A stretch of 57,992 bases of DNA from Vasconcelosia minhoensis LEGE 07310 (GTDB lineage: Bacteria; Cyanobacteriota; Cyanobacteriia; Phormidesmidales; Phormidesmidaceae). The notes below the pieces were generated by a model. It was not told where the DNA came from, did not search any database, and was given only the letters and a program-made list of their open reading frames with translations. The first letter of the stretch is position 1; each line of letters starts with the position of its first letter. Of this stretch, positions 2,038 through 34,421 are shown piece by piece. Both the position numbers and the translations under genes were made by a program. The stretch covers positions 1-57,992 of the forward strand of contig NZ_JADEXG010000028.1 in the NCBI RefSeq assembly GCF_015207255.1. Reading direction: 5' to 3'.

Positions 2038-2652
2038 CTATTCCAAAGGAGTTGCAACAAATTCCGGCAGCCGCTCGGCGTCGTTAGAAAACTCGGCCAG
2101 GGCTGGATAGGTCGCTTTCTCAATCACCTCAGGCAGCATCAGCTGGGTAAATCGCCAGGCGACGCAGACGGTAATATCGGGCTGCATCAGCTCCGTTGTC
2201 ACCAACCAGGGCGATCTCTGGGCGGCAGACTGCTCCAGCAGATCGTAGGCGGCCACGAGCTGGCCATTCACCCGGTCTAGCCAGGGCTGATACTGCTTTT
2301 CAGCCGGGCGCAGGGTGCGCTCATAGACAATTTGAACCGTTTTTTCACAGGCCCCCAGCGCCAGGCCAATCAGCCGCAGAGACTGCTGATGCTGGGGATT
2401 GCCGCTCGGCATCAAGCTCTTATCTGGTCCAGCCATTGTCTCGATGTATTCCAGGATCAGCGTGGAGTCTAGCAGCACCGTACCGTCATCACAGACCAGA
2501 GTAGGCGCTTTAACGAGGGGATTGGTCTGGCTAAAATCGTCGAAATTTTGGAAGACAGACAGGGAACGATGCTTAAAGGGAATGCCCAGCCGCTTTAGGG
2601 AAATCGCTACGCGGCGAACATAGGGGGAATCAAGCATACCGATGAGTTGCAT
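2038..2652 (-). CDS. Glutathione S-transferase family protein
   Basis: Cytosolic GST-fold protein of 204 residues. The N-terminal thioredoxin-like domain begins MQLIGMLDSPYVRRVAISL, the usual beta-alpha entry with a Ser/Pro pair (DSPY) where glutathione thiol contacts lie. It is followed by ...LVKAPTLVCDDGTVLLDSTLILEYI in short pieces: V-K-A-P-T is the cis-proline glutathione-backbone site and DST the gamma-glutamyl site. The rest is the all-helical GST_C domain. I chose the ATG at 2652 rather than the upstream one at 2676, because the eight extra residues precede the first strand of the fold. The physiological substrate is unknown. It stands alone, divergent from the M50 peptidase gene. Confidence 0.85.
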   Translation of the reverse strand: MQLIGMLDSPYVRRVAISLKRLGIPFKHRSLSVFQNFDDFSQTNPLVKAPTLVCDDGTVLLDSTLILEYIETMAGPDKSLMPSGNPQHQQSLRLIGLALGACEKTVQIVYERTLRPAEKQYQPWLDRVNGQLVAAYDLLEQSAAQRSPWLVTTELMQPDITVCVAWRFTQLMLPEVIEKATYPALAEFSNDAERLPEFVATPLE

Positions 2653-2829
2653 AGAGACGCCTGCCAAAAACAACATTCTACTCTAGCGCTGGTACCGTCA
2701 CCGCTGTTGCCCTGCCGAGCCTGATCGGCCCGACGAAAAAGGGAAGGGATAGCCCAAACGCTGAAGGCTAAGATAGGGGCATATTTACGCTGCCATGCTG
2801 CCAGCGTATTGCCTCTACTGAGTTCTGCA

Positions 2830-3963
2830 ATGACCGACTTTTCCGACCTGACTGCTCTGATCGCGGGCTTAATCTGCGTCCAAACCCTCTGGCAGCTATC
2901 CCAAAACTGGTCAAAGTTCTGGGATGACCCGGTAACGCCGGAGGACCAGCAGCTGGCCCAGCGGTTGGCGATATTTGCTTTGGTTCCGATTGGGGTGCTG
3001 CTGCATGAGATTGGGCACTGTCTGGCGACCTGGCAGGTGGGCGGAACCGTTATCGCTTTCCAATGGCGATTTTATTGGGGATACATCATCCCGTCGGGAA
3101 GTTTTAGCCCGGTCGAGCAGTGGTGGATTGCTTTCAGTGGCAATTTGGTCTCTATTCTGTTGGGGCTCGTCGCCATTCCGTTTATTCCCCTTGTGCGCAA
3201 GCGGATTGTTGGAGAACTGCTTTACTTTTTCGCCCTTGTTGAGCTGATTTATGCCCTAATCGGCTATCCGCTGTTGTCTTTAAGTATAAGGGGGGGAGAC
3301 TGGGTTCAAATCTACAACTTCGACGTTCAGCCCTATGCAACGATCACGTTAATAGGCCACGTGGGGCTGCTATGGGGGCTGTGGCAGCTGTATCACAGCC
3401 GTAGGGCAATTCGCTGGCGGCTGGATCGCAACGCCTCTACCTTAGACGAATGGGAAATGCTGGAGGCAAACGCGGCCGAACATCCGAATCAGCTACAGCC
3501 CCAGCTAGAGCTGGCCTATTTTTTGATACAGCACAGCGAGATGCGCGAAGCTAGGCAGGTAAGCCGAAAAATTTATCGGCTCGCCCCTGAGGATGAGCGG
3601 GTAAAGATTTTTCAGGTCGCGATGCTTTCTTCCCGCCGGGCCTACCGCAAAGCCATTCAAGCCGGACAAAACTTACTCAACTCTAACCCTTCAGCCGAAG
3701 CCCAGATCCGAATTTACCGAATCCTCTGTCACTCAGCCTACTCATCAAACCAACTGAAAGCAGCTCTTTCCTATGCTAACCGGGGATTAGCGATCTCGCC
3801 CAAAGACTACAAGCTAAGATACCATAGCGCCATTGCCCATTGGATGTCGAAGCTGCCTCAGAAAGCAAAAGCAGATTTCGACATTGCCTTGGAGAATGCT
3901 CCTGATGAAGAGATCCGTCAGCAGATACAGCAGTGGTTAGGTCAGCATTTCAAACGCTATTGA
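2830..3963 (+). CDS. M50-type membrane zinc metallopeptidase with C-terminal TPRs
   Basis: Integral-membrane peptidase of 377 residues. A HEIGH zinc motif (residues 59-63) sits inside a hydrophobic helix, as in site-2-protease-like M50 enzymes. Several further membrane helices follow to about residue 200, and a GGDW segment before the last of them may supply the third zinc ligand. From about residue 215 the protein becomes soluble and helical with tetratricopeptide-like units (LAYFLIQHSEMREARQ; ...ANRGLAISPKDYKLRYHSA). The TPR part probably recruits a substrate or partner. A TTG seven codons upstream is possible, but the ATG at 2830 is preferred. Its 3' end overlaps the convergent Uma2 gene by 14 nt. 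Substrate unknown; regulated proteolysis of a membrane protein is inference. Confidence 0.75.
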   Translation: MTDFSDLTALIAGLICVQTLWQLSQNWSKFWDDPVTPEDQQLAQRLAIFALVPIGVLLHEIGHCLATWQVGGTVIAFQWRFYWGYIIPSGSFSPVEQWWIAFSGNLVSILLGLVAIPFIPLVRKRIVGELLYFFALVELIYALIGYPLLSLSIRGGDWVQIYNFDVQPYATITLIGHVGLLWGLWQLYHSRRAIRWRLDRNASTLDEWEMLEANAAEHPNQLQPQLELAYFLIQHSEMREARQVSRKIYRLAPEDERVKIFQVAMLSSRRAYRKAIQAGQNLLNSNPSAEAQIRIYRILCHSAYSSNQLKAALSYANRGLAISPKDYKLRYHSAIAHWMSKLPQKAKADFDIALENAPDEEIRQQIQQWLGQHFKRY

Positions 3964-4501
3964 ACACCTCAGCTACGGTTAAACGCAACCCCTCCAGGTA
4001 GGCATCTTCGATCACCTGACTTTCCATAAAGGTCTGGGGCGAAGCATCGGGTAAAAAAACGGTAATGCTTTTGGCCCTTGGATCGACAATCCACACTCTG
4101 GTAACCCCGGCGGCGAGATAGTCTGCGGCTTTGGCAGCCATGGTGCCAAAACTCTGATCAGGCGAAACCACTTCGATAGCCAAATCCGGCGGCACCGGCG
4201 AAGGGGCATCCTCGTCCCAGTCTCGAGGAAGGCGATCATAGGAAACAAACATCAGATCGGGAATAGGCACCCAGGGCTCTCCCTGACGCGTGAGCACCAC
4301 CGACCACTCAGGATAAAAATGGCCTCGCTCCTCTGCCCAGCCATCGAGTAGCTTCAGCAGTGCTTTTTGGGTTTTAGCATGAAACCGCTTTGGAGACATC
4401 TTAGGAATGGCCTCGCCATCGATTAATTCGCAGCGATCGCCGATTTCAGCAGAGGTCAGAAAGGTGTCGAGGCTAATAAATTTAGGAAGCGACTGTACCA
4501 T
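3950..4501 (-). CDS. Uma2 family (DUF820) endonuclease-like protein
   Basis: A 183-residue Uma2/DUF820 protein, a PD-(D/E)XK nuclease-fold family vastly expanded in cyanobacteria. Fold-defining pieces are the ELIDGE strand near residue 25, PIPDLMFVSYDR (the acidic residue of the active site) and PPDLAIEVVSPDQS (the E-x-V pattern replacing E-x-K), followed by a KAADYLAAGV helix and VWIVDP. Biological role is not known for most members, and many are thought to be mobile or host-defence related. It converges on the M50 gene and lies upstream of the vapBC remnant. A second, diverged Uma2 gene is at 13562-14137. Confidence 0.85.
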   Translation of the reverse strand: MVQSLPKFISLDTFLTSAEIGDRCELIDGEAIPKMSPKRFHAKTQKALLKLLDGWAEERGHFYPEWSVVLTRQGEPWVPIPDLMFVSYDRLPRDWDEDAPSPVPPDLAIEVVSPDQSFGTMAAKAADYLAAGVTRVWIVDPRAKSITVFLPDASPQTFMESQVIEDAYLEGLRLTVAEVFNSV

Positions 4502-4586
4502 AATAGTTTAGAGAAAGTTGTGTTTTTAGCTCGAGAGAATCAAAATAATGAACTTCGAGGTTCAAAATAGGCAGGTGTAAGCCAGC

Positions 4587-4711
4587 TTAGCTATCCTCTA
4601 ACCAGTTTTCTAAAGCGACGTTGGAATAAATCTGAAAGCCTTCAAGATTGTTAGTCACTACCGTTAGGTTCAAGCTCTTAGCATGGCTTTAATATCGAGC
4701 ATATATTTCAC
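4587..4711 (-). pseudogene. vapC: vapC toxin remnant (internal deletion plus frameshift)
   Basis: A GTG at 4711 overlaps the vapB stop codon, the classical coupling of an antitoxin-toxin pair. It reads VKYMLDIKA, a match to the MKYMLDTN start of VapC PIN-domain ribonucleases, then stops after 14 codons. In the next frame the DNA reads NLTVVTNNLEGF and ends ALENWLEDS, which is the VapC C-terminus. About a hundred central residues, including most PIN catalytic acids, are therefore missing and the two ends are out of frame. The toxin cannot be active. Reading done by eye on the reverse complement; confident that it is a remnant. Confidence 0.8.
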
Positions 4712-4941
4712 AGAGTTTCTCGCTCCTGAGTTCCCTGATCTGGTCGCCCTTCGGTCATAAAGTCATCTGAAAAAGCTGCAAATTTATTTAAAGCATGTGT
4801 TAGAGGTTCACCTACAGGTCGAATAATCAAGCTATCGCCTCGGCGTTCAATTTCGTAATCGATGTCTGAGCGCTCAAACTGCAATTCTTTAGGAATTCGA
4901 ACTGCCTGGGAGTTACCGCTTGGAAATACATGAGGACGCAT
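4708..4941 (-). CDS. vapB: VapB-type antitoxin (AbrB/SpoVT fold)
   Basis: A 77-residue antitoxin. The N-terminal swapped-hairpin AbrB/MazE-type DNA-binding domain is recognisable in FPSGNSQAVRIPKEL (residues 6-20), the standard VapB motif. The acidic C-terminal half, around LNKFAAFSDDFM, would wrap the toxin. In an intact module VapB neutralises VapC and the complex represses its own promoter. Here the following vapC is reduced to two out-of-frame ends, so this is an orphan antitoxin. It may persist by neutralising a VapC elsewhere or as a leftover. A possible operator lies 42-59 nt upstream. Confidence 0.85.
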   Translation of the reverse strand: MRPHVFPSGNSQAVRIPKELQFERSDIDYEIERRGDSLIIRPVGEPLTHALNKFAAFSDDFMTEGRPDQGTQERETL

Positions 4942-4982
4942 TAGGGACTCTCCTCTAAGCAGAAAAAGGGCAAAGAATGACC

Positions 4983-5000
4983 GTATCTACAAGTGTATAC
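4983..5000. promoter_or_regulatory. Imperfect dyad upstream of vapB, possible VapB operator
   Basis: GTAT-CT-AC-AA-GT-GT-ATAC is a partial dyad 42-59 nt upstream of the vapB start. VapB-family antitoxins usually bind such dyads at their own promoters. Assignment rests on position and symmetry only. Confidence 0.3.
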
Positions 5001-5049
5001 GTAGAAATTTATTTTGTCTTCAACGCTAGTATGCATGAGACAATAGGGT

Positions 5050-6591
5050 TTAGACGATCGCGATCGCGCCATCTCGCCGCTCATCCCCAGCCGCCTGAAA
5101 TTGTCCCTCGGCATCGACGCCAACGCTGTGAACACCGCCAAAGAACATATTGGCCTGAGGCCACCAGAGCGGCTGCTCGGAGCCGAGAAGATTGGATTGT
5201 TCAATCGCAACCCGGTCAAAACCCGGCTCCAGGTTGAAAATCTCTCGTTCCCAGTGTATCCGAGGGGCAGAGACCGCTTCTGCTAATGGCAGGTTGAAAT
5301 CGACAAGGTTGGAAATGACCTGCAAAATCGCCGTACGGATTCGGTTGGAGCCGCCGGAACCCAGGACGAGCTGGGGCTGGCCGGATTGCAGCAGCATCGT
5401 CGGAGCCATCATCGAAGATATCCGCTGGTTGGGTTGCCATTGGTGAAAGCCCTGGGGATTCAAATCCTCCTCGCCCAGCATATTGTTGGCCATAATCTGA
5501 GTGCCAGGGATGACATAGGACGAACCTTCGCCATTGGATGTTGTGACGCTGGCGGCATTGCCCTCGCTGTCGATGACGCTGATATGGGTGGTGCTGCCCC
5601 ACTTATTGACCGCTTCAGCTAACGCCTGCCGATAGGGCTCGACATGCCCATCGGCCAGGAAACGTTCAGCTACATCAGCCTCGTACAGCCTGGCATCGTA
5701 GCCGTCGCGGCGGGCCTCATTGGTCATTTTCATGGCCTGACTGAGCAGCTTCAGGTGAGCCGGACTGCCGCGCGTAAGCTGAGATAAATCAAATTTGCTG
5801 AGCAGGTTTAGGCAAAAGGCAATCAGCGCCCCGCCAGAGCTGGGGGGCGGATTGGTCAGCAGCGTCCGATTGCGGTAGGTCAGCCTGAGCGGCTGCCGCT
5901 CGATTACGCGATAGTTTTGCAGGTCAGCCTGGGTAAGATAGCCGCCCTTGACCTGACAGTCCTGCACCAGCTGATGGCCGATAGCGCCTCGATAAAATTC
6001 TTCAAACCCGACTTTGACCAGCATTTCCAGCGTATCGGCCAGTGCTGGCATCCGCAGCCGATCGCCCTTTTTTAGCCGCTTCCCACTGGGCGCATAGATT
6101 TCCCGAGCCGCCGGATTGGCCGTCAAAATAGCGTCAAGAATTTGATAGCAGTAGCTCTGAAAAGCATCGACGGTGACGCCGGTTCTGGCCCAGTGAATCG
6201 CCGGAGCCGCGATCGCGGCCAGCGGCAGCCGTCCCAGTCGCCGATGCACGTGGGCCAATCCTGCCGGTAATCCGGGTACTGCGATCGCGCCTAGCCCAAC
6301 GTGAAACTCCTGCACCGTATTGCCAAAATTGGCATCAATCGGATAGAAATCCGGCGGCTGTGCCGTCGTTTGCTGGCCCGGGGTTTGGGTAAAAAAGTCG
6401 AATAGGAGATCCTCCTGCGGCGTATGGGCCAGCAGAAAGCCACCGCCGCCCAGCGACGTCAGGGCCGACTCGGTGACGCAGGCCGTGAGGACAGCCGCGA
6501 TCGCGGCGTCGAAGGCATTGCCCCCCAGCCGCAGCATCTCAGCCCCGGCGGCGGCAGTTTGAGGATGACCGGCGGCGACTGCACCCGGCAT
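5050..6591 (-). CDS. ggt: Gamma-glutamyltransferase (gamma-glutamyl transpeptidase)
   Basis: Ntn-hydrolase that cleaves or transfers the gamma-glutamyl group of glutathione and related compounds. The 513-residue precursor has the family opening (VAAGHPQTAAAGAEML), the glycine-rich LTSLGGGG loop, and the autoprocessing site before Thr334 in GSTTHISVID. Cleavage there would give a small subunit of 180 residues starting at the nucleophilic Thr. SSMMAPT and GSGGSNRI are further substrate-pocket motifs. No signal peptide precedes the domain, unlike periplasmic GGTs, so a cytoplasmic enzyme is likely unless a start further upstream is used. The 6592-6939 region behind it is filled with dispersed repeats. 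It is monocistronic as far as I can see. Confidence 0.92.
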   Translation of the reverse strand: MPGAVAAGHPQTAAAGAEMLRLGGNAFDAAIAAVLTACVTESALTSLGGGGFLLAHTPQEDLLFDFFTQTPGQQTTAQPPDFYPIDANFGNTVQEFHVGLGAIAVPGLPAGLAHVHRRLGRLPLAAIAAPAIHWARTGVTVDAFQSYCYQILDAILTANPAAREIYAPSGKRLKKGDRLRMPALADTLEMLVKVGFEEFYRGAIGHQLVQDCQVKGGYLTQADLQNYRVIERQPLRLTYRNRTLLTNPPPSSGGALIAFCLNLLSKFDLSQLTRGSPAHLKLLSQAMKMTNEARRDGYDARLYEADVAERFLADGHVEPYRQALAEAVNKWGSTTHISVIDSEGNAASVTTSNGEGSSYVIPGTQIMANNMLGEEDLNPQGFHQWQPNQRISSMMAPTMLLQSGQPQLVLGSGGSNRIRTAILQVISNLVDFNLPLAEAVSAPRIHWEREIFNLEPGFDRVAIEQSNLLGSEQPLWWPQANMFFGGVHSVGVDAEGQFQAAGDERRDGAIAIV

Positions 6592-26263: not shown

Positions 26264-26884
26264 TTACTGCAGCCAGCGTATAACCAGTTCGGGCGATTGC
26301 CACAGGCCGTATATCAGCAAGCCAAAAATTCCAGTGATGAGCCCTGTGGCAACATACCCTACACACATCATCAGCCCATCTGCTTCAAGAGTAGCCGCCA
26401 CAAAAATTAAAATTCCTACAGTTGGAATTGGGTTAGTCATCGGAATAGGCGCTATCAGTAACAGTGTTAACCAGCTGATGCAGACTCCATTGATTTGCCA
26501 GATATGAGCGCTTTGAGCCAGTCCGGTTAATCGAGGGCGAATAAATCGCTCTGTTAGGCGAGTAACCCGCTTCAGGTTGCTGAGTATCTGCCGCGTTAAC
26601 ACGGGCGGAAACTGAAACTGTGTAACTCGCCGGGGTAGCCAGGGCGATCGCCGTCCTAAAGCCATTTGTAGCGACAGCAGCAGACAGGCCGAACCTAAGA
26701 CAGTGGTAAAGCCTGGCGGCATCGGAAATAGAAAAGGTAACACTAGTAATCCAATCACCAGGCTAGATCCCCGCTCGGAGGTTTCAGCGAGTAAATGGGC
26801 TAAGGTCAGAGGCTGCTGAGCCAGTCGCTCTAGCAAGGTTTTAATTTCCTGAGAAAAGCTCAGGCGATTCGGATCAGAGACCAT
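26264..26884 (-). CDS. exoD: ExoD family membrane protein
   Basis: A 206-residue integral-membrane protein of the ExoD family, named from rhizobial exopolysaccharide mutants. The opening TLAHLLAETSERGSSLVIG and the LLVLPFLFPMPPGF loop are the family signatures, followed by a basic loop and three more hydrophobic segments. Its molecular activity is not known; ExoD mutants in rhizobia are alkali-sensitive, which would fit an ion/pH-homeostasis operon. Its start overlaps the end of the SLC13 permease gene by 11 nt, pointing to translational coupling. CorA follows 20 nt later. Confidence 0.85.
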   Translation of the reverse strand: MVSDPNRLSFSQEIKTLLERLAQQPLTLAHLLAETSERGSSLVIGLLVLPFLFPMPPGFTTVLGSACLLLSLQMALGRRSPWLPRRVTQFQFPPVLTRQILSNLKRVTRLTERFIRPRLTGLAQSAHIWQINGVCISWLTLLLIAPIPMTNPIPTVGILIFVAATLEADGLMMCVGYVATGLITGIFGLLIYGLWQSPELVIRWLQ

Positions 26885-28661
26885 AGAAGGCCATGATGAG
26901 CGGTGGAGTAATTAGAGCCATCAATAGGTTCATGGGAGTACCCACCCAGAGAAAGTCGGTAAAGCGATAGCCGCCCGGGCCGTAGACCATCGTATTGGTT
27001 TGGTAGCCGATCGGCGTCATAAAGCTATTAGACGCCGCAAACATGACCGTGAACATAAAGGCGTAGGGATTGAGGCTTAAGGTTTCAGCAACCTTGGCAG
27101 CGATTGGCAGCAGCAGAACGACACAGGCATTATTGGAGAGAATCTCGGTCACCAGGGACGTGATGACGAAAAACAAAGTTAGCAGTCCGTAGCCGGACCA
27201 TTGCCCGCCCAAGGCCACCATGGCGTCTGCCAGCCACTGGGTTGCGCCAGATTTTTCCATGGCAATTCCGAGAGGAATTAGCCCCGCTAGTAGAAAAATG
27301 ATGTCCCACCGGACCGCCTGATACAGCTCTCCTGGCCTGAGGCAGCTTGTCAGCAGCATTAACACAACGCCAATCCAGGCGCTGACTAAAATAGGCACCC
27401 ACTCTAGAGCCGCTAGCACGACTACACCAATGAGAATTGCGATCGCGATACCCGCCTTCTCCCGACGAAACGTTCCTACCTCTTTTTGCTCTATCAAAAC
27501 CCAGCCTGGGCTAGTTTGCAGTCCCAAAAGGCTTTGTTTGGGTCCCTGCACCAGTAGCACATCGCCAAATTGAATCGGAACCTGCCCTAAGCGATCGCGC
27601 CGGACAGCTTGCCCTTGCTGAATGGCTAATACGGTTGCGTTATAGCGCTGGCGAAAGCGGGTTTCCTTTAAGGTTGAGCCTACGATCTCTGCATTTGGCA
27701 GGATTAAGACTTCAGCAATGCCTTCTGAAGCGGTGAGCGCGGGTTCCGCGTCCAGCTGGCCAAATTGGACTTCTGGTAAAATTTCGATCCCCTGGGCTTC
27801 TTTAATCCTCAATAAACAGTCGGGTCGTCCTCGAACCAGTAAAACATCACCAGCTTGCAGCACCTTATCCGCAATCGGTTGGGAGAAATGCTCCCCGTTG
27901 CGAATTAGCTCCATCACATCCATGTCGAATTGACGCTGCAGCTGGCTGGAGCGAAGCGACTGACCGACCAGGGTAGAGCCGGGGGAAATTACAATCTCAC
28001 TGATGTAGCCATTGAGACCATAGCGCTGAAGTACTGGATCAGTTGCCAGGGCCTGACGGTTCGGCAGCCAGCGCGGTGCAATAAAGGCTAAATAGAGTAA
28101 CCCAACAGAGCCTGTAATCAGCCCGACTGCGGTAAATTCAAACAGTCCAAAAGCTTGATACCCTAGCTGTTCTGAGAGACCACTGGCAAGAACGTTGGTA
28201 GAGGTGCCGATGACGGTTAACATGCCTCCTAGTACAGTCACATAGGAGAGCGGCATCAATAGCTTAGAGGGAGAAATTCCCTGTTTTCGACACCAGTCTT
28301 CCACAATCGGTAAAAAGACGGCAACGACAGCCGTATTGTTGATGAAGCCTGAGATCGGGCCTACAATGGCTCCCATTACTAAAATCTGGCGACTGGGTCG
28401 TTTTCCACCCCAGGTTATAAACCAGTTGCTCACCACCTGAACAGCTCCGGTTCGGGCAATACCTGCACTCAGGATAAACATTGCCAGTACGGTGATCGTT
28501 GCTGAATTACTAAAGCCCGAGATCCCCTCCTCTGGAGTGACCAGGCCCAAGGTCATGAGGATAACCATGACCGCGATCGCCGTAATATCCGCTGGAAACC
28601 ACTCTCCTACAAAACAGATTAGCGCCAGCAAAACGACACCCAAAGTCATTATAATCGTCAT
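26874..28661 (-). CDS. SLC13 family permease with two RCK_C (TrkA-C) domains
   Basis: A 595-residue DASS/CitMHS-type permease. Two blocks of membrane helices flank a cytoplasmic insert (about 200-390) with two RCK_C domains: ISPGSTLVGQSLRSSQL...GDVLLVRG and PNAEIVGSTLKETRFRQ...GDVLLVQG. The last block has FAASNSFMTPIGYQTNTMVY, the substrate-site signature. Synechocystis members of this type act as sulfate or Na+-coupled anion transporters; the ion is not readable here. RCK_C domains in K+ transporters bind c-di-AMP, which matters because a c-di-AMP-type riboswitch lies 4 kb away. Its start codon overlaps the stop of a 54-residue membrane protein gene (ATGA), and exoD overlaps its end. Confidence 0.9.
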   Translation of the reverse strand: MTIIMTLGVVLLALICFVGEWFPADITAIAVMVILMTLGLVTPEEGISGFSNSATITVLAMFILSAGIARTGAVQVVSNWFITWGGKRPSRQILVMGAIVGPISGFINNTAVVAVFLPIVEDWCRKQGISPSKLLMPLSYVTVLGGMLTVIGTSTNVLASGLSEQLGYQAFGLFEFTAVGLITGSVGLLYLAFIAPRWLPNRQALATDPVLQRYGLNGYISEIVISPGSTLVGQSLRSSQLQRQFDMDVMELIRNGEHFSQPIADKVLQAGDVLLVRGRPDCLLRIKEAQGIEILPEVQFGQLDAEPALTASEGIAEVLILPNAEIVGSTLKETRFRQRYNATVLAIQQGQAVRRDRLGQVPIQFGDVLLVQGPKQSLLGLQTSPGWVLIEQKEVGTFRREKAGIAIAILIGVVVLAALEWVPILVSAWIGVVLMLLTSCLRPGELYQAVRWDIIFLLAGLIPLGIAMEKSGATQWLADAMVALGGQWSGYGLLTLFFVITSLVTEILSNNACVVLLLPIAAKVAETLSLNPYAFMFTVMFAASNSFMTPIGYQTNTMVYGPGGYRFTDFLWVGTPMNLLMALITPPLIMAFYGL

Positions 28662-28849: not shown

Positions 28850-31663
28850 TTACTTGGATTGAGCTCGTTTCATAGCCTGTCTGATAAACAGCTTTTCGGC
28901 TTCCAGCCAAACAAAAACGAGTGAGCTAAAGCCAAAACAGATGGCTAGTTCTATAGCAGACAGGGCATAGAGCCCAAAGAACTGCTGGAATATGGGCACA
29001 TAAATAAGGAGCACCTGTAGCCCTGTTGTCAACAGCACGGCTCCCCAAACATAGAGGTTGGAAAAGGGACTCAGCTGCAGCGTCAGCTGGGTATCTGAGC
29101 GAACAGCTAATGCATGGCCCATCTGGGCTAGACAGAGGGTTGTAAACACCATCGTCTTCCAGGTATCTGGGTCGCCTGAATAGGTTGCTGCATGGGTGTG
29201 GCGGTAAGCCCAGGCCATCAGGCCAATGGTGAGGATCGCCAGCAGCAGCCCAACTCGTAGCATGTATGCTCCCAGTCCACGGGCAAAGATGCTTTCTTTG
29301 GGGTTATGGGGCGGACGCTGCATCACGTTGGGCTCAGCGGGCTCCATTGCCAGCGCTAATGCCGGAAAGCCATCAGTCACCAGGTTCATCCAGAGAATTT
29401 GCAGCGGTGTTAAAGGCACACCCCCCAGTCCGAGTAAGGGAGCGGCAGCAATGGTTAGTACCTCGCCGATATTACTGCCAAGGATGTACTTGATAAAACG
29501 GCGAATATTGTCATAAACGACTCGTCCTTCTTCAGTAGCCGCAACGATAGTGGCAAAGTTATCGTCGAGCAATACCATATCACTGGCCTCTTTACTGACA
29601 TCGGTGCCTGTGACACCCATCGCAATCCCGATGTCAGCCTGTTTTAGAGCAGGGGCATCGTTGACGCCATCCCCAGTCATCGCAACAAACTCCCCTCGCT
29701 TCTGGAGGGCCTGCACAATTCGAAGTTTATGCTCTGGAGCCACCCTGGCATAGACGCTGACATTGGGAACGGTTCTCTCTAATTCTGCTGTGGAGAGCTG
29801 AGTCAGGTCATATCCGGTCAGAACGGCGTTCCCCGGTTGAGCAATGCCTAAACTTTCAGCGATGACCTGTGCTGTTAGCTGGTGATCGCCTGTGATCATA
29901 ACAGGGCGGATGCCTGCTCGCCGACAGGCGGCTACGGCAGTCCGCACCTCGGGGCGGGGAGCATCCAACATTCCCACTAGCCCCAGCCAAATCAGATTTT
30001 GCTCTTCCGTTTCCAGGTTCTCAGTGGATGAGGCTTCTAATGGCTTCATCGCAAAACCGAGAACTCGCAGTCCTTGAGCAGCCATCCTGTTGTTTGCAGC
30101 TAACACTCCCTGTTTTATATCGGCAGTTAGAGGCTCAACTTCGCTTTCTTTCTGTACAAAGCTGCATTGATCTAGCACTAACTCAGGCGATCCCTTCATA
30201 AACATCATTGGGCTTTCCGGCATAAGCGAGAGCAGTTCCGCCGCACAAGCCTGGATGACGACGCTCATCCGCTTACGCTCAGAAGTAAAGGGAATTTCAG
30301 CAACGCGATTGCTTGATTTTTTTAGCCTGGACTGGTCGAATCCTCCTTTGCCGGCTAAGGCTAAGAGCGCCCCTTCCGTTGGATCGCCTAATATCGTCCA
30401 TAGACTACCTTCATGGTTCAAGTTGGCGTCATTGCAAAAAACGCTAGCGATCAATAAGGCTTCTAGGGCTGGGCACTCCTCGACCTTCACCGCCTGATCG
30501 TTTTCTAGAATTCTGCCGATTGGAGAGTATCCTTCTCCAGTTATCTGATACTGAGTATCGAAGGTTTGTACTTGCTGTACCACCATCTTGTTTTGGGTTA
30601 AGGTGCCCGTTTTATCAGAACAGATGGTGGTGACAGATCCCAGAGTTTCTACCGCTGGCAGCTTGCGGATGAGGGCATGGCGGCGTACCATGCGCTGAGT
30701 TCCCAACGCTAAGGTAACGGTGATAACAGCAGGAAGACCTTCAGGTACCACCGCCACCGCCATGCTGAGGGAGACTTCTAGTAACTCATCAAACAGACTA
30801 AGGTCGCCTGAACGCAATAGGCCAATCACGACAACTAGCGCCACTAGCACCAGCGAGCCAGATACCAGCACATTTCCCAGTTGACCCATGCGCTGCTGCA
30901 GTGGGGTAGGTTCGGTTTCTACTGACTGGATCAGGGTCGCAATGCGTCCTAGTTCCGTCTGCATACCCGTCTGCGTAACCAGTACGGTGCCTCGCCCTTG
31001 CAGCACTTCGGTGCCCTGATAGACCAGGTTGACGCGATCGCCTAAGCTTGCTTCATCCGGCAGCGTGACCTCAGGCCGTTTGATGATTGCCTCCGATTCG
31101 CCTGTCAGCGCCGCTTCGCGAATCTGGAGGTTCGAAGCATTCAACAATCGCCCATCAGCAGGCACCTGAACCCCGGCTTCTAGCAGTACAACATCCCCTG
31201 GTACCAGGTCTTTAGCATCTTGCTCTTGCTCTCGGCCACTGCGAACCACCCGAACTCGCGGCGACGTCATATTTTTGAGGGCAGCTAAGGCTTTTTCAGC
31301 GCGGCTTTCCTGAAAATATCCCAGAATGCCGTTCAGGAGCACAATCGCGAAAATTGCGATCGCGTCCTTGGGAAAGCCTCCTTCCTGCAAGTCGAGTATT
31401 AAAGATACGATAGCGACGGCGATCAGCATCAGCAGCATGATGTTCTTAAACTGATCCCATAGAATGACCCAGGGGCTGCGAACCGTGCCTTCTTTAAGTT
31501 CGTTGAGACCATAGCGATCCTGACGGTGCCTCGCCTTATCATCGGTCAATCCATTTGGGTCACTCTCCAGCGGACTCATCGCCTGCTGGGAAGTTAGCGT
31601 ATGCCAGGCATTGCCTAGAGGACGGGTAGAGGACGGGATGCTAGGAATTGGGCGAGAAACCAT
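28850..31663 (-). CDS. P2A-type cation ATPase (calcium-transporting type)
   Basis: A 937-residue P-type ATPase. TGES (187-190) belongs to the actuator domain, VVPEGLPA (PEGL 307-310) to the ion-binding M4 helix of P2A pumps, [10 protein letters not shown] carries the phosphorylated Asp350, and [18 protein letters not shown] is the hinge motif. The N-terminal cation-ATPase domain and C-terminal six-helix block are complete. The PEGL loop and overall order fit Ca2+ (PacL) or Na+/K+-like pumps rather than heavy-metal P1B pumps. It starts a minus-strand operon with a 54-aa protein, SLC13 permease, ExoD and CorA. Divergent from the P-loop-like gene at 31751; the 87-nt gap holds short dyads. Confidence 0.94.
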
Positions 31664-31750: not shown

Positions 31751-32839
31751 ATGAAAATTTTTTTTACTCCTCAGGGACTAATCGGTCGAGAAGCCGAGCT
31801 AAAACAGGTCTGTCAATTGCTACAGGAAGATAGGGACTGTGCAGTTACCGGGATTCCCGGAATAGGACGCCGCAGGCTACTTCGCACGGCTGCCAAACAA
31901 GTAGGCTCCCGTTCTCTAGAGATTGACTGCCTTCGCTGCCACAGTGCGAGACAGTTTCTCAGGCTTCTGGCCGATAGTCTAATAGATGTTTTTTCTGACC
32001 CTGCTGAGCTAGCCAAAATTCAACAGTGGAGCCAGGGGCAGCCGCTGACGTTGGATCGAATACAGTCGCCCAAGGTGCGGCTAATATGGCCAACGTTAGC
32101 TGGCAAAGAATGGGCTCTATTTCAAGGGCTACTCGCTTTGCCGCAGCAGATGGCCGAATGGCTTGGCTGTCGGGTGGTGGTTATGTTTTACAACTTTCCC
32201 CATATCCGCTCATGGGATCGTCAGGGTAAGTGGGAAACATACCTACGTCAGGAAATCCAGCTGCAGAGTCGGGTCAGCTACGCCCTAATCTCGACAGTCG
32301 CTGAACCTTGGGTCTACGCGAGTCAGCTGCCCGTAATTCATCTTGCTCCACTGACTGATGCAGAACTACAGCCTTGGCTAATGAATAGTTTTGCCCGAGC
32401 TGGTCTCAAGTTCGATTCTGAAAGCCAGGCTGTGAAGCTGTTTTTGAGCTACGTACAGGGCCATATCAAAGATGCCATTACTCTGGCTCAGCGGCTCTGG
32501 TTAAATCATCAGGCGACTGAGAAGTCTACTTCAGGCATTCTTTACGCCGATCAGGTGCACAGCAGTATGCTGTCATTAGTACAGGATATCGGTGTAACCT
32601 TTGAAGCTTTGCTCTTGCTACTCCCTCTGACCCAAGCCCGCCTATTGGAAAGTCTGGCCCTGGATCCTACCCATAGCCCTCAGTCCACGGCCTATATTAA
32701 AAAGCATCAGCTCTCGCGAGGTGGCGGCCTACAGGGAGCGCTTAACAGCTTAGAGCAGAAAGGACTGATCTACGGTCCTAGATTTGGCTACCGGATTGCC
32801 CTACCTCTACTCGATTTTTGGTTGAAGCAGCGATTGTAG
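31751..32839 (+). CDS. P-loop NTPase-like protein with degenerate Walker motifs and C-terminal winged helix
   Basis: A 362-residue protein laid out like archaeal-type/STAND ATPases: LIGREAELKQV at the entry, a P-loop-position segment, an alpha/beta core, then a helical region and a C-terminal winged-helix domain (HQLSRGGGLQGALNSLEQKG, then PLLDFWLKQRL). The Walker A place reads GIPGIGRRR (34-42), without the Lys-Ser/Thr that holds phosphate. The Walker B place reads VVVMFYNF (142-149), without the Asp. It probably does not hydrolyse ATP. The start is ATG 31751; the TTG three bases earlier is possible. Divergent from the calcium-ATPase operon and 247 nt ahead of the riboswitch-led permease; regulator or scaffold is a guess. 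Confidence 0.7.
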   Translation: MKIFFTPQGLIGREAELKQVCQLLQEDRDCAVTGIPGIGRRRLLRTAAKQVGSRSLEIDCLRCHSARQFLRLLADSLIDVFSDPAELAKIQQWSQGQPLTLDRIQSPKVRLIWPTLAGKEWALFQGLLALPQQMAEWLGCRVVVMFYNFPHIRSWDRQGKWETYLRQEIQLQSRVSYALISTVAEPWVYASQLPVIHLAPLTDAELQPWLMNSFARAGLKFDSESQAVKLFLSYVQGHIKDAITLAQRLWLNHQATEKSTSGILYADQVHSSMLSLVQDIGVTFEALLLLLPLTQARLLESLALDPTHSPQSTAYIKKHQLSRGGGLQGALNSLEQKGLIYGPRFGYRIALPLLDFWLKQRL

Positions 32840-32853
32840 TAAAGTTACTTGAG

Positions 32854-32882
32854 TTGCCGACTCTATAAACTAGTGCTATTCT
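32854..32882 (+). promoter_or_regulatory. Candidate sigma-70 promoter of the riboswitch-permease transcript
   Basis: TTGCCG (32854-32859), 17-bp spacer, TATTCT (32877-32882). The predicted start near 32889 is just ahead of the riboswitch. TAGTGCTA at 32871-32878 overlaps the -10 region. Confidence 0.45.
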
Positions 32883-32894
32883 TAAGAAAATTTA

Positions 32895-33030
32895 TCTGAG
32901 CCGTTGCCTAATTCGGTCATACCGAAGCGGAGGACCCAACTTTGGGGCGTACCCTGCAAATGCAGGGAGGAGACTCTCACTCCTAGCCCGTCAGCTAACT
33001 TCGTCGGCGTTGAGAGGAGATAGCATTCTA
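32895..33030 (+). promoter_or_regulatory. c-di-AMP (ydaO-yuaA type) riboswitch
   Basis: The leader carries the strongly conserved blocks of the ydaO c-di-AMP aptamer in the right order: CCGAAGCGGAGGACCCA at 32922-32938, GGGGCGTA at 32944-32951, a CCCTGC-AAAT-GCAGGG hairpin, and then AGCCCGTCAGCTAACTTCGT (32985-33004) with CGGCGTTGAGAGGAG after it. Class known to be mostly an OFF switch for ion, osmolyte and wall genes. Edges are approximate. It leads the interrupted permease gene at 33087. Alternative riboswitch classes do not share this set of blocks. No covariance search was run. Confidence 0.88.
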
Positions 33031-33040
33031 AGGAAGCCCG

Positions 33041-33081
33041 TCTCCTGGTTTTACTGTTCAGATTTCACCTCATCCAGGAGA
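33041..33081 (+). promoter_or_regulatory. Stem that can sequester the permease ribosome-binding site
   Basis: TCTCCTGG (33041-33048) is the complement of CCAGGAGA (33074-33081), which contains the AGGAG ribosome-binding site six bases before the ATG at 33087. The upstream arm lies directly after the aptamer, so ligand state could switch this stem and hence translation. Mechanism inferred from pairing only. Confidence 0.6.
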
Positions 33082-33086
33082 TCGCT

Positions 33087-34421
33087 ATGGAAAGTTGGTC
33101 TGCCAGTGTGTCACTAGCCGTGTTTATTGGCGTGCTAGCCTGCATTATTGCTGAACGACTCCCTCTGACAATTGCTGCCCTGCTGGGGGCGCTGCTGTTG
33201 GTATTTCTAAACGTGCTTACCCTAGCAGAGGCTGTTGAGTACATCGCCCAGAGCCATGCAACCCTTGCCCTCTTTTTTGGAGTCATGGTCATGGTACGAG
33301 CGTTTGAACCAACCCAAATATTCGACTATCTTGCGACTCAAATGGTGCTGCTAGCCAAAGGGCAAGGTAAACGACTGCTGATTGGCATTGTGGCTATTAC
33401 CACTCCTATTTGCGCCGTTCTGCCCAATGCTACAACAGTCATGCTGCTAGCCCCACTGATTCCACCGATGGCGACAGAGCTAGGGATAAATTTTGTGCCG
33501 CTGCTAATCCTCATGGTATTCGTAGCGAACAGCGCTGGCCTGCTTACCCTGGTCGGAGACCCGGCCACATTCATCGTAGGTGATGCAATCAATATCAGCT
33601 TTATGGACTATCTGAAGTCGCTGAGCTTGGGAGGTGCGATCGCGCTTGGCGTCATCGTTTTTATGTTGCCAATATTATTTCCTTCCATTTGGAATAGGCA
33701 ACTCGATAATCTTAATCAGCTCCCTCATCCTAAAATTAATCATCCCCGGGTCTTAATTTTAGGTGGGGTCATTGCAGCTCTAGTCCTGCTATTCTTTGTG
33801 ATTGGAGAAACCTTACCTGTTCCGGTTTCTCCTGCAACGGTAGCTCTAGTCGGAGCCACACTCTGCATGCTCATTACGCATCAAAGTCGGATTGACGCTG
33901 TCCAGAATGTTCTAAGAGATGTGGACTGGAGTACTCTAATCTTTTTCATGAGTACCTTTGTGCTAATTGGCGGATTAGAGTAGACAGGCGTTCTCAGTGC
34001 CGCTTCTAATGTCTTAGCCTTTATCCTCAGGCAAAACATCGCCTTGGGCGCAATTTCCTTGATGCTGATAGTTGGAATCCTTTCAAGCCTTGTACCCAAC
34101 ATTCCATTGGTGGTTGCAATGGTACCTCTGCTCAAAGAATATATCGTCAATGTAGGACTCTCGCCAACTGACATTCTCGACCCTAATTTTACTGGCAACC
34201 TCCCGCCAGAGGTACTACCCCTGTTTTATGCTATGATGTATGGAGCAACCTTAGGCGGTAACGGAACTTTAGTCGGCGCATCATCCAATATTGTTGCGAT
34301 AGGGATCGCTGAACAACATGGTAAACGCATCTCTTTTCAAACATTTTTGCAGTATAGTGTTCCCATTACAGCCTTACAGCTAATCGTAGTTAGTCTATAC
34401 GTTCTGATTCGATTCTTCTGA
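33087..34421 (+). pseudogene. ArsB/NhaD-type (SLC13-like) permease interrupted by one in-frame amber codon
   Basis: Open frame of 444 residues broken only by TAG at 33981-33983 (codon 299): ...FVLIGGLE-stop-TGVLSAAS. Both halves are in the same frame and both read as membrane transporter. The first has VLPNATTVMLLAPLIPPMAT and LTLVGDPATFIVGDAINISF; the second has VPNIPLVVAMVPLL and GATLGGNGTLVGASSNIVA, the paired signatures of ArsB/NhaD-like ion transporters. A CAG (Gln) or AAG (Lys) codon changed by a single substitution would restore it. The lack of other damage indicates a recent mutation, a sequencing error or suppression. It stands behind a c-di-AMP-type riboswitch. Confidence 0.85.

Follow-up and report, generated by a model that had tools for sequence, protein, structure and literature searches.

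In Vasconcelosia minhoensis LEGE 07310, a short mRNA that encodes a Slr0753-type anion permease (CitMHS/ArsB fold) begins with a c-di-AMP aptamer of standard type, which probably controls translation initiation, acting as an OFF switch in which a helix between the RNA 5' end and the loop of a Shine-Dalgarno (SD)-sequestering hairpin serves as the anti-sequestor. The stretch of DNA analyzed, hereafter the window, comprises 57,992 nucleotides, and the features described below are on its plus strand unless stated otherwise. The aptamer, the target class, and SD sequestration are of kinds already known, and the combination of switch and permease target is known in other cyanobacteria. On balance, we lean toward the view that, in a small cyanobacterial clade, translation is gated by pairing between the SD-hairpin loop and the 5'-terminal segment of the mRNA just outside the closing stem P1, which would act as an anti-sequestor or as a pseudoknot clamp, and that this represents an expression platform not described before. 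The clade-specific helix itself appears to be undescribed in the searchable literature, which excludes most subscription journals.

The leader can be regarded as a genuine c-di-AMP riboswitch, for which ligand binding is predicted. Using cmscan, the Rfam RF00379 model (c-di-AMP, ydaO/yuaA) matched positions 32895 to 33024 over its full length (model positions 1 to 134) at 80.2 bits (E 4.5e-17), above the gathering score of 38, with P1 formed by 32905 to 32908 and 33006 to 33009. This match bears out the identity proposed in the first-pass annotation, which had recognized the ydaO motif blocks; these do follow one another in the expected order within 32922 to 33004. The aptamer is the only RF00379 copy in the 5.26-Mb genome. 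Since a diadenylate cyclase DAC domain (PF02457, E 3e-39) is encoded in the same genome (C102, 7082 to 7441), the host is predicted to make the ligand.

Upstream of the aptamer, a promoter at 32854 to 32882 combines a weak -35 element (TTGCCG, 32854 to 32859), a 17-nt spacer, and an extended -10 element, TGCTATTCT (32874 to 32882). It had been described as canonical; TTGCCG-N17-TATTCT is indeed present, but it is weak by consensus, agreeing at 8 of 12 positions, and it goes unlisted in a simple promoter scan, whose threshold is 9. Among eight relatives, the -35 is only partly conserved, and the extended -10 pattern TGCTAnnnT precedes the aptamer in seven, with one relative giving no match. This conserved extended -10 outweighs the consensus score and supports the promoter assignment, from which the RNA 5' end is predicted at about 32888 to 32890.

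The regulated gene, at 33087 to 34421, is of the CitMHS/ArsB permease type (PF03600), with ArsB and VcINDY-type transporters as the nearest solved relatives. The earlier reading of the target as an ion permease thus holds as to type, but it overlooked that the frame is broken. A TAG at codon 299 (33981 to 33983), where seven relatives have a lysine codon (AAA), ends an open part of 298 amino acids (33087 to 33983; CitMHS PF03600/ArsB PF02040), and homology runs on through 33984 to 34421 as far as residue 443 of the family profile, with one TAG inside. The idea that this organism generally recodes TAG was rejected, since the neighboring upstream open reading frame also terminates with TAG (at 32839); the codon is an ordinary stop here. 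As the interrupted permease is present in a single copy, with no second one in the genome, it is possible, if doubtful, that the locus is decaying and that this strain retains a permease pseudogene behind a relic riboswitch. Against such decay, the aptamer and the SD hairpin are intact, and the part after the TAG combines low amino-acid divergence with near-saturated silent change, similarly to the intact relatives. Because this part is still constrained, the stop would have arisen very recently or reflect a wrong base in the draft assembly of 161 contigs, either of which fits the data as well as decay does. If the stop is not an artifact of assembly, the permease output here may be a truncated protein. 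By analogy, the intact protein would be a putative chloride exporter, chloride transport being termed putative even for slr0753.

Control at the level of translation is well supported by the conservation of the SD hairpin, by the enrichment of anti-SD sequences in related leaders, and by the lack of a detectable terminator. In the window, the anti-SD arm TCTCCTGG (33041 to 33048) and the SD arm CCAGGAGA (33074 to 33081) form an exact 8-bp stem, which buries the SD AGGAG (33076 to 33080) located 6 nt before the ATG, within an expression platform of 62 nt. Leaders from nine species (the window and eight relatives) all end in the same way: the start codon directly follows an SD arm that reads CCAGGAG or nearly so, and 21 to about 50 nt of loop separate this arm from an anti-SD arm with the sequence CTCCTGG or one close to it. 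Across their alignment, 97% of the stem cells are paired, in agreement with the stem proposed from the window alone; the arms are themselves conserved in sequence, which leaves little scope for covariation in this set. The proposed SD sequestration gains further support from a larger sample, as a perfect 6-nt anti-SD occurs between the aptamer and the SD in 16 of the 22 scorable leaders directly upstream of this permease (3.7 expected from shuffles). A terminator scan of 32600 to 33200 found no intrinsic terminator, which argues against a transcription-termination mechanism.

The second element of the platform, missed in the first-pass annotation, is a long-range helix. The RNA 5' end just outside P1 (32894 to 32904) is 82% complementary to a segment of the SD-hairpin loop (33053 to 33063), the paired strands being ATCTGAGCCG (32894 to 32903), recognized as one half of an inverted repeat, and 33054 to 33063 inside the loop. 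In the nine-species alignment, a small set of related species, 7 of 10 pairs show changes on both sides, a result equaled in none of 500 shuffles, and 74% of the cells are paired, versus 20 to 42% in slid controls. Duplex energies point the same way: cognate 5'-end:loop duplexes average -12.3 kcal/mol, versus -9.5 kcal/mol for permuted partners (P = 0.0019). The pairing is especially plain in the relative G037 (TTTAAGC/GCTTAAA) and in Kaiparowitsia (CTGAGCTA/TAGCTCAG), and the helix is missing in two of the nine species, PCC 6406 and T3Sed10. We consider this comparative evidence good but not final; it suggests a role as an anti-sequestor or as part of a pseudoknot.

The helix is specific to this clade, as a general pairing of 5' flank and platform was unsupported across all permease leaders (P ~ 0.4). 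A DNA-pattern search for further members of the platform, run with an overly narrow spacing, returned the window itself only. Separately, the 5' flanks of leaders of the NtrB type (e.g., L138, L141, L155, and L186) pair better, as a group, with their own platforms at +74 to +134 than with those of other leaders (P = 0.0004), and that lineage may have a similar long-range helix.

For the anti-SD arm, three partners can be found: the SD, the AGGAGA at the tail of the aptamer (33015 to 33020), and an AGGAGAC inside the aptamer (32968 to 32974). The tail AGGAGA is a copy of the SD, both a direct repeat of it and an inverted repeat of the anti-SD arm, with which it can pair in place of the SD in a duplex of -10.6 kcal/mol in the window; as it is conserved in sequence, covariation is silent on this pairing. 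An extension of P1, which in the window would pair TTATCT of the 5' flank with AGATAG of the aptamer tail, was also considered and rejected, cognate pairing being no better than permuted pairing in the clade (P = 0.49) or among all leaders (P = 0.12).

Taken with these pairings, a translational OFF switch is the most likely mechanism. At high c-di-AMP, the folded aptamer would leave the anti-SD arm (33041 to 33048) free to pair with the SD, turning translation off. At low c-di-AMP, the RNA 5' end would pair with the hairpin loop, and the tail AGGAGA or the internal AGGAGAC would capture the anti-SD arm, exposing the SD in a ligand-free ON state. In nested folding, the SD is less occluded in most species when the 5'-end:loop helix forms and the anti-SD arm is captured. 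When the native aptamer was enforced, the predicted occupancy of the SD hairpin rose in the window from 0.02 to about 0.20, so that the folding energies are compatible with the OFF model there; in G037, too, it increased for two of the three 5' ends that were assumed, and in Kaiparowitsia it fell. These energies vary between species and with the choice of 5' end, so they were not taken as proof of the sign of the switch; the OFF assignment matches the direction of the Bacillus kdp switch.

Two other arrangements of the same elements were weighed against the OFF switch with its anti-sequestor. In one, the 5'-end:loop helix and the SD hairpin would coexist as a loop-tail pseudoknot, clamping the SD shut on the folded aptamer. 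The geometry is suitable: in the seven species with the helix, the complementary segment always lies within the apical loop, a few nucleotides past the anti-SD arm and about 9 to 12 nt or more before the SD arm, and the helix begins beside P1. We nevertheless hold this clamp to be unlikely, as nested folding, with a program that cannot score pseudoknots, yields the helix in place of the SD hairpin for several species. In the other, ligand-stabilized P1 would bring the 5' end into position for pairing with the loop and so open the SD, giving an ON switch. Enforcing the native aptamer does increase the helix in Kaiparowitsia and leaves it dominant in Petrachloros and BC1307, yet the shift is in the opposite direction in the window, in G001, and, for two of its three assumed 5' ends, in G037, and the Bacillus kdp switch is OFF, which makes an ON switch quite improbable. 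The idea that the aptamer is a nonfunctional look-alike, whether degenerate or due to chance, can be practically dismissed, contradicted as it is by the bit score relative to the gathering score and by conserved synteny and covariation.

The permease is one of the three main partners of the c-di-AMP riboswitch in cyanobacteria. Of 291 genomes sampled from the class Cyanobacteriia, 155 contain RF00379. Of 113 cyanobacterial riboswitch loci, gathered regardless of the permease and counting strict-core-motif loci only, 40 had a gene for an NtrB-like ABC permease as the first one recognized downstream, 31 had one for a universal stress protein (USP), 28 had this permease, and 1 had a P-type ATPase, with none of these in the remaining 13. 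The permease had been called an uncommon target outside any described regulon; neither part of that view can be maintained, as it recurs behind the riboswitch throughout the class and, according to a review (PMC10117731), Synechocystis slr0753 is under a c-di-AMP riboswitch. The anion (putative chloride) permease therefore belongs firmly to the cyanobacterial c-di-AMP regulon, beside the NtrB-like ABC transporter and the USPs, and its membership is consistent with a role of c-di-AMP in ion and osmotic balance.

Gene order around these loci offers some further observations. The order riboswitch-USP-permease is conserved in several Nostocales (L055, L064, L069, L073, L082, L084, L105, and others). 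In L038 and L059, the permease is flanked by two c-di-AMP riboswitches, the rear one leading an NtrB-like ABC gene. In the genome G096, a riboswitch of this family (L113, 2083 to 2229) precedes a P-type cation ATPase (2551 to 5322) whose start lies about 320 nt after the aptamer. This ATPase, a further candidate target, is 68% identical to one encoded on the minus strand of the window (28850 to 31663), where, upstream of the riboswitch, a second CitMHS permease with TrkA_C domains (26874 to 28661) accompanies this PMR1-type cation ATPase. A similar CitMHS permease/ATPase pair surrounds the riboswitch-led permease in L091.

Within cyanobacteria, the leaders of ntrB-like ABC permeases and USPs share the RF00379 aptamer family with the window and differ from it in their first gene and in their different, mostly longer expression platforms. 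The closest known system is that of Synechocystis, in which the same aptamer family stands upstream of the same permease type: PMC10117731 states that slr0753, which encodes a putative chloride efflux transporter, is regulated by a c-di-AMP riboswitch and credits the verification to Mantovani et al. 2022, and for the gene itself PMC9896922 cites Kobayashi et al. 2006 and suppressor genetics. Our sample contains a Synechocystis-like genome, L111, with the order eno-riboswitch-permease and an orthologue that shares 68.7% identity with the window protein. Judging by this gene order, L111 is probably Synechocystis. Beyond the aptamer, its leader continues for about 320 nt, and the short CTCCTGG/CCAGGAG hairpin is missing from it, whereas the window has a platform of 62 nt and a gene interrupted by a TAG. 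In Bacillus, too, ydaO/yuaA switches place an RF00379 aptamer at the start of mRNAs for ion transporters. The B. thuringiensis kdp switch is an OFF switch that acts via intrinsic transcription termination (PMC6488665); in the window, by contrast, no terminator is seen and the SD is buried. While the best-studied c-di-AMP switches use transcription termination, the leader described here would be an example of a compact translational one.
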